Below, one piece after another: positions 1,176-40,845 of a DNA stretch of 64,000 bases (position 1 is its first letter; each line of letters opens with the position of its first letter). Source of the DNA: Lachnospiraceae bacterium (GTDB lineage Bacteria > Bacillota > Clostridia > Lachnospirales > Lachnospiraceae); contig JAFLTH010000003.1 of NCBI GenBank assembly GCA_022510525.1, positions 16,217 through 80,216 on the forward strand. Reading direction: 5' to 3'. A program made the translations under genes and the position numbers. The notes under the pieces are model-generated. The model searched no databases. It was not told the DNA's origin and saw only the letters and a program-made list of their open reading frames with translations.

Positions 1176-1219
1176 AAAAAGGGTGTAAAGCCTTAACAAT
1201 TTAATAAGACTTTACACCC
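1176..1219 (-). terminator. Rho-independent terminator of small-ORF cassette A
   Basis: Minus strand: GGGTGTAAAGTCTTATTAAATTGTTAAGGCTTTACACCC followed by TTTTT. Confidence 0.75.
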
Positions 1220-1247: not shown

Positions 1248-1508
1248 TTATCCTATTTTTTGTAACTTTTCGCTGTGATCCTGCAGTACTTTTTTCATAA
1301 TATCTATATCAGACTGTATTGCATCAAGCTGTTCCATACCATTTGAGTATCTGCGATATGTAGAAGTATAACAACTTTCTATATTTTGCAGTCGTGGCAA
1401 GATATCATTTTCATTTTGCAGTTTCAAAGTTTTGATATCATCTTTCACTGGTCTTAATTTATTATCTAACAAATCGGATATTGAAAGTAATAACTCGTTA
1501 TCTGTCAT
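1248..1508 (-). CDS. Small coiled-coil protein (86 aa), cassette A
   Basis: MTDNELLLSISDLLDNKLRPVKDDIKTLK...; RBS AGGTGG 7 nt before the ATG; own promoter and terminator resembling those of the 36.5-37.1 kb cassettes. Confidence 0.7.
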   Translation of the reverse strand: MTDNELLLSISDLLDNKLRPVKDDIKTLKLQNENDILPRLQNIESCYTSTYRRYSNGMEQLDAIQSDIDIMKKVLQDHSEKLQKIG

Positions 1509-1529: not shown

Positions 1530-1575
1530 TATTATCATGCTTAAAATTAGGTGTAAAGCCTTATTAAGTTGTCAA
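1530..1575 (-). promoter_or_regulatory. Promoter of cassette A
   Basis: Minus strand: TTAATAAGGC-TTTACA-(17 nt)-TAATAT; same TAAGGCTTTACAC context as the promoters at 36465 and 36813. Confidence 0.6.
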
Positions 1576-1943
1576 GGTATTCGTAATGATTTCTTAATTG
1601 TATTCGTTTGATATAGTTAAGCATGGATTTTCTGAAACTTTAAATTTAGATATTAAGAATAGCTGATTTGCCTTAAAGAAAATATGCTTTTGGCTATAGT
1701 AACATAACATGAAGAAAAATGCAAATATTCGTTTTGCTTCAAATGGTTGCAAAACAACCAAAACTCATCCGCTTCTTTGTGCAAACCTCACAAGAATTAA
1801 CATAATGTACCACCGAAAACCTCACATATTTGTGATAAAATATTCGCTTTCCACTTCCTTTTCATATAAAAAGTGCTATAATAATATTATCTATTAAACT
1901 GGCACCATTATGTCAGTCACAATTTAAGATTGGAGGGGTTATT

Positions 1944-36268: not shown

Positions 36269-36464
36269 TGCAATTTTAAATATAATATTCTGTAGCTAAA
36301 TCATATTATTCTAATGCTGACTATAGTAACATTAGAATTTCAAAATTCTTTTTATTTCCGGCATATCGCCGATGAATTCAAAACAATTAATATATTAATG
36401 ATTTGATATCACTTGTTATTGAATCGCTTGGTTTAATTTTAGCACCTTGATAATTGAATAAGGC

Positions 36465-36494
36465 TTTACACTTGCAATAAAAACCCTTTATAAT
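36465..36494 (+). promoter_or_regulatory. Promoter of cassette B
   Basis: TTTACA (36465-36470), 18-nt spacer, TATAAT (36489-36494). Confidence 0.7.
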
Positions 36495-36544
36495 TAAGTT
36501 AAACATCAAACTTAGGGGAAAAGGGGTGTGAAAGGATGAATGAA

Positions 36545-36712
36545 ATGACAGATAAAGAGTTAATCACAATAACGATTGACAGATATACGGATTTGCAACG
36601 TATTAAAAAATCAAATGGTAATCAGGAGAATGCAGAACTTGATTATCAAATAAAAATAACAACCGCTAAATTATCATCATTGGGAGTAAATGTTGAGGAA
36701 ATAACTCTTTGA
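36545..36712 (+). CDS. Small protein, cassette B (55 aa; upstream in-frame ATG at 36536 possible)
   Basis: MTDKELITITIDRYTDLQRIKKSNGNQENAELDYQIKITTAKLSSLGVNVEEITL; similar to cassette C; not in the supplied ORF track. Confidence 0.65.
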   Translation: MTDKELITITIDRYTDLQRIKKSNGNQENAELDYQIKITTAKLSSLGVNVEEITL

Positions 36713-36756
36713 CATACAACTCTTAAACATGCAACTAAACCGATACACGTAAACAA

Positions 36757-36800
36757 GGGTGTGAAGTCTTATTAAATTACAAAGGCTTTGCACCTTTTTT
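36757..36800 (+). terminator. Rho-independent terminator of cassette B
   Basis: GGGTGTGAAGTCTTATTAAATTACAAAGGCTTTGCACCTTTTTT. Confidence 0.8.
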
Positions 36801-36812
36801 GATTGATAAGGC

Positions 36813-36842
36813 TTTACACCTGTAACAAAAACCCTTTATAAT
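36813..36842 (+). promoter_or_regulatory. Promoter of cassette C
   Basis: TTTACA (36813-36818), 18-nt spacer, TATAAT (36837-36842), nearly identical to the cassette B promoter. Confidence 0.7.
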
Positions 36843-36899
36843 TGGTATAGACTTGAAATACTAAAAAATGAAGGTGGTGAAAAGAGGGTGAGTGATAAT

Positions 36900-37064
36900 A
36901 TGACATTAGAAGAACAAAAAGAAGTAGCCATAGACAGATATGTAGACTTGATGAGGATTAAGGCACATGAAACAGGCGAAAACAAAGAACTTGACTATCA
37001 AATTAAAGTTGCAAAGGTAAAATTAACAAGTTTTGGCATTGATTTTTCAGAACTTGAGTTTTAA
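36900..37064 (+). CDS. Small protein, cassette C (54 aa; GTG at 36888 possible)
   Basis: MTLEEQKEVAIDRYVDLMRIKAHETGENKELDYQIKVAKVKLTSFGIDFSELEF; paralog of cassette B; not in the supplied ORF track. Confidence 0.65.
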   Translation: MTLEEQKEVAIDRYVDLMRIKAHETGENKELDYQIKVAKVKLTSFGIDFSELEF

Positions 37065-37091
37065 TAACAACTAAACAGGCGCACATAAATC

Positions 37092-37134
37092 AAGGTGTAA
37101 AGTCTTATTAACCATCAAGGCTTTACGCCTTTTT
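37092..37134 (+). terminator. Rho-independent terminator of cassette C
   Basis: AAGGTGTAAAGTCTTATTAACCATCAAGGCTTTACGCCTTTTT. Confidence 0.8.
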
Positions 37135-39975: not shown

Positions 39976-40845
39976 ATGAAAAATACAAACATACAGTGGC
40001 ATCCTGGGTTTGTGGCGGCTATGAACTTGGAATTAAAACAAAATAGAGCCGATTTGATATTTGAAAAAGAATACAATCTGAATACGAAACCCTTGGAAAT
40101 CGATCTGCTGGTGATTAAGAAAAATACGGATATACGGATAGACAATGAAATAGGTCATATTTTCAGAGAACATAATATACTGGAATATAAGTCTCCGGAA
40201 GATCATATGGATATTGATACCTTTTATAAAGTAGGAGCTTATGCAAGTCTATATAAATCCTACGGAAATACCGTAGATTCAATAAAAGTAGAGGACATAA
40301 CGATATCACTTGTCAGGGAAAACAAACCGGATGGATTGTTCAGATATTTTGAAAAGAACCGCTACCTGGTATCAAATCCATATAATGGTATATATTATAT
40401 AGATGGAAATGTATTATTTCCAACACAGATAGTAGTTACCAAAGAACTTGACAAGTCTGCGCATATCTGGCTCGGAGCTCTGTCGAATAAATTAAAAAAG
40501 CAGAATATGCTGGAACTGCTTGAGAATATAAAACGGCTTACAGGTAAGATAGACAAGGAATTAGCGGATTCGGTTTTAGAAGTAAGCGTAGGTGCGAATA
40601 AGCAGGTTATAGAAGAATTGATAGGAGATGATAATATGTATCAGTCATTGATGGAAATTATGGAACCAAAACTTCTTATCAGGGAGAAAGAAGCAATAAA
40701 AGAGGGAATAAAAGAAGGATTAAAAAAAGGCATTCGGGTGACAGTAGATATTCTCCGTGATATGGGGCGTCAGGACGATGAGATTAAAACAATATTGACC
40801 GAGAAATATGAGATTTCGGCGGAGGAAGCTACAGAATATTTATGA
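39976..40845 (+). CDS. Putative PD-(D/E)XK nuclease-like protein of unknown function
   Basis: 'PLEIDLLVIKK...HNILEYKSPEDHMDIDTFYKVGAYASLYK' gives a D...ExK pattern; C-terminal charged 'KEAIKEGIKEGLKKGI' helix. Confidence 0.55.
   Translation: MKNTNIQWHPGFVAAMNLELKQNRADLIFEKEYNLNTKPLEIDLLVIKKNTDIRIDNEIGHIFREHNILEYKSPEDHMDIDTFYKVGAYASLYKSYGNTVDSIKVEDITISLVRENKPDGLFRYFEKNRYLVSNPYNGIYYIDGNVLFPTQIVVTKELDKSAHIWLGALSNKLKKQNMLELLENIKRLTGKIDKELADSVLEVSVGANKQVIEELIGDDNMYQSLMEIMEPKLLIREKEAIKEGIKEGLKKGIRVTVDILRDMGRQDDEIKTILTEKYEISAEEATEYL

Follow-up and report, generated by a model that had tools for sequence, protein, structure and literature searches.

Integron gene cassettes are small genes that carry one hairpin each and form exchangeable arrays, and mobile insertion cassettes and MITEs have short inverted ends around passenger genes without a transposase. 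In conjugative plasmids of the pLS20 family, many variable small operons each lie behind a near-identical regulatory sequence, EGeRS1/EGeRS2 (PMC8708921). Tn916 has an insulating terminator together with the canT anti-terminator (PMC11658703). Anti-defence genes of leading regions are another near published idea (PMC11541004). Of these nearest published ideas (establishment-gene regulons, Tn916 and leading-region genes), none was seen to describe the small-gene cassettes reported here, and literature searches gave no account of them.

Like the pLS20 establishment operons, the cassettes show inverted repeats (in the pLS20 family some are separated by over 100 bp), mosaic content and, in a subgroup, ardC as a neighbour. 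EGeRS1, however, is an upstream region of 400-750 bp that lacks a strong promoter (PMC8708921), whereas a cassette has a 31-nt end and a matching terminator. Cassettes are also single small genes and most lie outside conjugative elements: judged by gene content (ArdC, DnaJ-like), a subgroup may have such a location, and those at comM, exonuclease and other chromosomal sites do not. In Tn916, and by our proposal in the cassettes, a mobile element carries a cis-acting RNA that governs the passage of a terminator. Heterologous terminators respond to canT, which works processively (PMC11658703), whereas the cassettes would rely on local pairing with one terminator arm. The logic would also be reversed, with outside RNA passing and inside RNA stopping.

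The window (the whole stretch of DNA analysed, 64,000 nt) contains two consecutive cassettes, B and C, between pilT and comM, and cassette A, which has the same ends and encodes an unrelated protein. The original prediction saw in B and C two small-gene units with similar products. Both are indeed real units, each with a consensus promoter, an ORF of 54-58 aa and an intrinsic terminator, and the two proteins are homologous (49% identity, E 7e-10). The features are as follows.

36443-36800, plus strand: cassette B, whole unit (promoter, RBS, small ORF, hairpin and U-tract)
36443-36473, plus strand: left end of B (region 1), conserved across cassettes; its -35 box spans 36465-36470
36465, plus strand: start of the -35 box TTTACA of B, followed by a 17-nt spacer
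36488-36493, plus strand: -10 box TATAAT of B
36536-36712, plus strand: small ORF B, family F1, 58 aa from ATG 36536 or 55 aa from ATG 36545
36757-36800, plus strand: terminator of B, with 5' arm 36758-36766 (region 2), 3' arm 36786-36794 (region 3) and U-tract to 36800
36795-37134, plus strand: cassette C, whole unit (promoter, RBS, small ORF, hairpin and U-tract)
36795-36822, plus strand: left end of C (region 1), overlapping the U-tract of B, with the -35 box at 36813-36818
36836-36841, plus strand: -10 box TATAAT of C
36888-37064, plus strand: small ORF C, family F1, 58 aa from GTG or 54 aa from ATG 36900
37093-37134, plus strand: terminator of C, with 5' arm 37094-37102, 3' arm 37121-37129 and U-tract to 37134
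1577-1176, minus strand: cassette A, whole unit
1550-1577, minus strand: left end of A, containing its -35 box
1248-1508, minus strand: ORF A, family F8, 86 aa, coiled-coil-like
1176-1218, minus strand: terminator of A, with 5' arm 1218-1210, 3' arm 1190-1182 and U-tract

The boundary sequence is present three times per unit: direct in the left end, inverted in the 5' arm of the terminator and direct in its 3' arm. The inverted match of the left end extends over about 28 nt and exceeds the terminator stem, since both the 5' arm and the loop take part in it. This inversion of the promoter-side end in the terminator arm had been noticed by inspection and lies beyond chance: among 20,000 Markov-1 resampled left ends, none (B), one (C) and none (A) reached the observed score. 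The sequence AAGGCTTTACAC, allowing up to two mismatches, occurs 17 times in the window vs 5.4 expected. The window at 36458-36471 and other left ends share the core AGGCTTTACAC, which is identical to the lac promoter's -35 region in E. coli; the likeness is probably a coincidence of good -35 context.

Cassettes B and C are members of an extensive, hitherto unannotated set of small-gene cassettes that are dispersed and exchanged across Lachnospiraceae of the gut. In the source genome (G000, a 3.53 Mb draft), AAGGCTTTACAC is found exactly 11 times, clustered at six sites, and at least six sites hold cassettes. A sequence model built from just the left end matched 65 of the 78 genomes of the genus (it also picks up the right end, reversed, about 300 bp off), and its strong matches in a class-wide sample all fell within Lachnospiraceae. 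A model of the right-end hairpin, whose weaker matches include ordinary terminators, matched 58 of the 78 genus genomes and 74 of 397 family genomes, the latter representing 67 of 334 sampled genera. Five cassettes stand in a tandem array in one genome (G004). A protein search of GTDB genomes gave 52 loci encoding relatives of protein C, with titles nearly all from Lachnospiraceae or other clostridia (including Parablautia, Sporofaciens and Acetivibrio ethanolgignens); at many of them the ends have diverged. Homologues of ORF B lie at other sites in other species, and relatives of ORF A (L128, L141) in other genera.

The conserved stretch comprises 31 nt at the left end and, at the right end, 37 nt plus TTTTTAATT, with sharp limits. 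The two ends of a cassette are coupled. Spacer length varies from 3 to 6 nt between cassettes, always jointly at both ends, and the two lengths were equal in 31 of 33 genome classes vs 11.6 expected by permutation (maximum 22 in 5000). In a set pre-filtered for own-match score, with relatedness controlled only in part, the left end followed the 5' arm and loop of its own cassette (35.1 vs 29.4, sd 0.5) and did not follow the 3' arm in direct orientation (20.3 vs 20.4). A sliding 15-nt covariation test was discarded since it fits the very pairing that it measures. Where the paired ends differ by transitions, G.U is favoured over A.C, at 114:27 when cells are counted and 26:16 when distinct positions and changes are counted. 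The same left core serves two promoter registers (TTTACA-17-TATAAT or TTGAAT-17-TATAAT); TTTACA is thus retained also in cassettes whose -35 box is TTGAAT. The architecture and the coupling of the ends are shown at the DNA level. An Rfam search found no known RNA family in the window or in six cassette loci.

Comparable sites were aligned with those of a sister genome (G088), whose site flanks are about 84-94% identical to the source genome at the DNA level. The names exonuclease III, HEAT, Rpn, pilT and comM come from sequence inspection or from the original prediction, without a Pfam call, and some neighbouring genes were called from naive ORFs. The two genomes differ at every one of the six comparable sites, with cassettes added, missing, gutted or replaced. 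The pilT-comM site has two cassettes in the source genome and three in its sister, and the exonuclease III-like gene site has one vs two. At the Rpn-like gene site the flanks are the same and the cassette interior is different (219 vs 192 bp, non-homologous). The HEAT-repeat-like gene site holds a solo end vs a full cassette, and at the C102 site the ORF is deleted vs present. The A site holds a cassette vs one remaining end; we dropped the latter as a precise empty site, as the alignment shows about 260 bp upstream also missing. Beyond this pair, pilT-comM is free of cassettes in ten species (more distant ones in which both genes could be placed), where the gap is 184-587 bp vs 992 bp in the source genome. 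Common flanks with different cassettes were found at C137/L103, at L037/L200 (L200, a viral-collection contig, shares its left flank with genome G034), and in ardC and dnaJ slots. Another genome (G087) has a duplicated 681-bp unit with different ORFs. These comparisons show whole cassettes being gained, lost, duplicated and exchanged between chromosomal sites and mobile elements within Lachnospiraceae. To account for the observed swaps it would be enough that the shared ends undergo homologous recombination, with mobile elements assisting. The copies in genome, genus and family, the polymorphism of occupancy and content at syntenic sites and the tandem arrays support the idea of a compact cassette family that may be mobile or duplicating. 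Its terminal inverted repeats may act as an RNA device, instead of or in addition to serving mobility.

At pilT-comM, the cassettes of both genomes follow a conserved comM leader and precede the comM RBS. A motif of this leader (CCGGCRTRTCGCCG...ATTCA; window 36358-36390 and the pilT-comM gaps of L152-L174) is kept genus-wide, even where the remainder of the gap is not conserved, and is possibly an unrecognised regulatory RNA leader.

We favour a reading in which the exchangeable, self-contained cassettes use their matched ends as a three-part RNA switch for cis-acting anti-termination, with products that are maybe establishment or anti-defence proteins, and give it a probability of about 0.42. 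Each unit would be a self-contained expression cassette made of left end, strong promoter, gene for a small helical protein, and terminator. The predicted start site is downstream of the left end in both promoter registers; region 1 would therefore be missing from the cassette's own mRNA, in which region 2 would pair with region 3 and transcription would stop. RNA started outside would carry region 1, whose pairing with region 2 over about 28 nt would prevent 2:3 pairing, so that polymerase would continue into the neighbour. The cassette would in this way terminate itself without silencing the host operon.

In predicted folds the 1:2 and 2:3 pairings are mutually exclusive, as in an attenuator. 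For 70 detected units the median terminator probability was 0.999 in the own transcript, 0.03 in the read-through transcript and 0.999 with a shuffled left end, some left ends in this set being mis-assigned (e.g., L069 2431, L100 and L031 1694) and C being recomputed separately. For A, B and C the values were 1.00, 1.00 and 0.99 in the own transcript and 0.00, 0.00 and 0.02 from the left end. Against the switch, the equilibrium fold of an 892-nt comM-leader transcript spanning B and C re-forms terminator C. The difference between own and read-through folds would arise with any inverted repeat longer than the stem and shows a capability and not its use. Anti-termination and any benefit to the neighbour gene are inferred.

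Nine or ten cassettes stop 2-20 nt short of the RBS of a co-directional gene, which leaves little or no room for a promoter there; ArdC (PF08401) and DnaJ-like genes are among these neighbours. This subgroup has the best complementarity (44.7 vs 33.7, p 6e-5). We had predicted that complementarity would decay beside convergent genes; it is as strong there as beside co-directional ones (31.5 vs 26.4, p 0.53). This equal conservation speaks against selection for read-through and keeps transposon-like and operator-like ends as live rivals.

The stronger of these rivals holds that the ends act at the DNA level, as terminal inverted repeats of a transposon-like element that is not autonomous (MITE or mobile insertion cassette) and has its transposase supplied in trans, the terminator and -35 box being by-products. 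It would account for inverted ends that match within a cassette, for their conservation regardless of neighbour orientation, and for the gain, loss and dispersal seen. We nevertheless consider it unlikely: target-site duplication gave no signal (the mean shared word was 4.23, against 4.19 after permutation), no dedicated transposase was found and no autonomous copy bounded by such ends was noticed among the loci inspected, the right end is longer than the left and forms a terminator with a further 3' arm and U-tract of its own, and there is the G.U bias.

The ends could instead be operators bound at both positions by a host or element repressor, perhaps with looping, to give transient expression after transfer like the establishment promoters of conjugative plasmids. 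The left core overlaps either of the two promoter registers and is conserved in both, ArdC genes are neighbours in a subgroup, and repressor-controlled and inverted-repeat-controlled establishment genes have precedent (PMC8708921). A spacer length that varies (3-6 nt) between cassettes, yet jointly at both ends, would be odd for one repressor, however; an operator has no need to fall in a terminator arm, and the G.U bias is left unexplained. This makes operators an improbable account.

Site-specific recombination, integron-like or other, with the hairpin as an attC-like site and the left end as its partner, is to be given very little credence, and an integron was rejected. Although there is one hairpin per cassette, with tandem arrays and interior swaps bounded by the ends, an integron integrase above the TIGR02249 cut-off was found in 0 of 78 genomes (matches below the cut-off are also present in all 14 control genomes). 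The hairpins inspected lack the attC core RYYYAAC/GTTRRRY, spacer length is not fixed, empty alleles are not precise and, in contrast to integron cassettes, each unit has its own promoter. Least probable of all is that these are ordinary small genes whose promoter and terminator are merely typical of the lineage, with functionless end pairing and with copies that arose through duplication and homologous recombination, since the ends covary within a cassette and the 31-nt left end is conserved family-wide and only partly needed for the promoter, although the C102 and C83 variant alleles and the L111 tandem resemble plain deletions or gene conversion.

If the three-part RNA switch operates, the cassettes may constitute a family-wide class of self-insulating units in which the terminator stops only transcripts begun inside, so that small, possibly anti-defence genes could be inserted into operons without polar effects; we put this forward tentatively. 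It would explain how genes with both promoter and terminator spread into leaders and operons without silencing host genes, and would provide a compact way to make gene insertions non-polar.

The same ends are used by at least eight families of small proteins (F1-F8, about 42-116 aa). No convincing family was found for them in Pfam, NCBIfam, PHROGs or PADLOC, and PDB searches by sequence and by fold gave no significant match. F1 (protein C) is confidently predicted as a two-helix hairpin (pLDDT 92.4), for which no significant structural relative was found; F1 and F2 align weakly over the whole length. A Spo0E-like phosphatase was considered for F1 given the two-helix hairpin and an ELD motif, and rejected: PF09388 does not match B or C at E 10, or any other cassette of the source genome. 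The codon differences in ORF B between the source and sister genomes are mostly synonymous (5 vs 2), in numbers too small for a test. Because some cassettes directly precede ardC in mobile-element-like regions, their neighbourhood hints that the products may be establishment or anti-defence proteins. The cassettes expose many unannotated small proteins with fast turnover in a dominant gut bacterial family, and with some of them adjoining anti-restriction genes, the proteins are a candidate set for such functions.

A phage origin was also rejected. Homologues of C were seen in one inovirus, in one unverified 'phage' record that looks bacterial and in one IMG/VR entry, and two other cassette protein families had no homologue in the phage sequences searched. 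These few homologues mean that phages are not the main home of the cassettes. A plasmid search with protein C found none. The inovirus, from rodent faeces (L198, PQ006180.1, 1501-1674), encodes a relative with 57% identity to protein C directly upstream of its replication initiator gene.

Several cassettes are preceded by a left module of about 165 bp (L007 1500-1670, L011 1500-1670, L098, L101 and L103). It has its own promoter (TTTACA-17-TATAGT), no obvious ORF and no Rfam match, and possibly represents a non-coding RNA unit that has the same end. One genome (G007, L186 1356-1728) has beside a cassette an extra small coiled-coil gene that is absent from another (G021). It has its own promoter and terminator and different ends, and other families of small-gene units may exist. 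An ORF at 39976-40845 of the window resembles, by eye, an Rpn-type PD-(D/E)XK nuclease/transposase, and a look-alike gene also directly follows the cassette at the C137 site of the source genome (L007).
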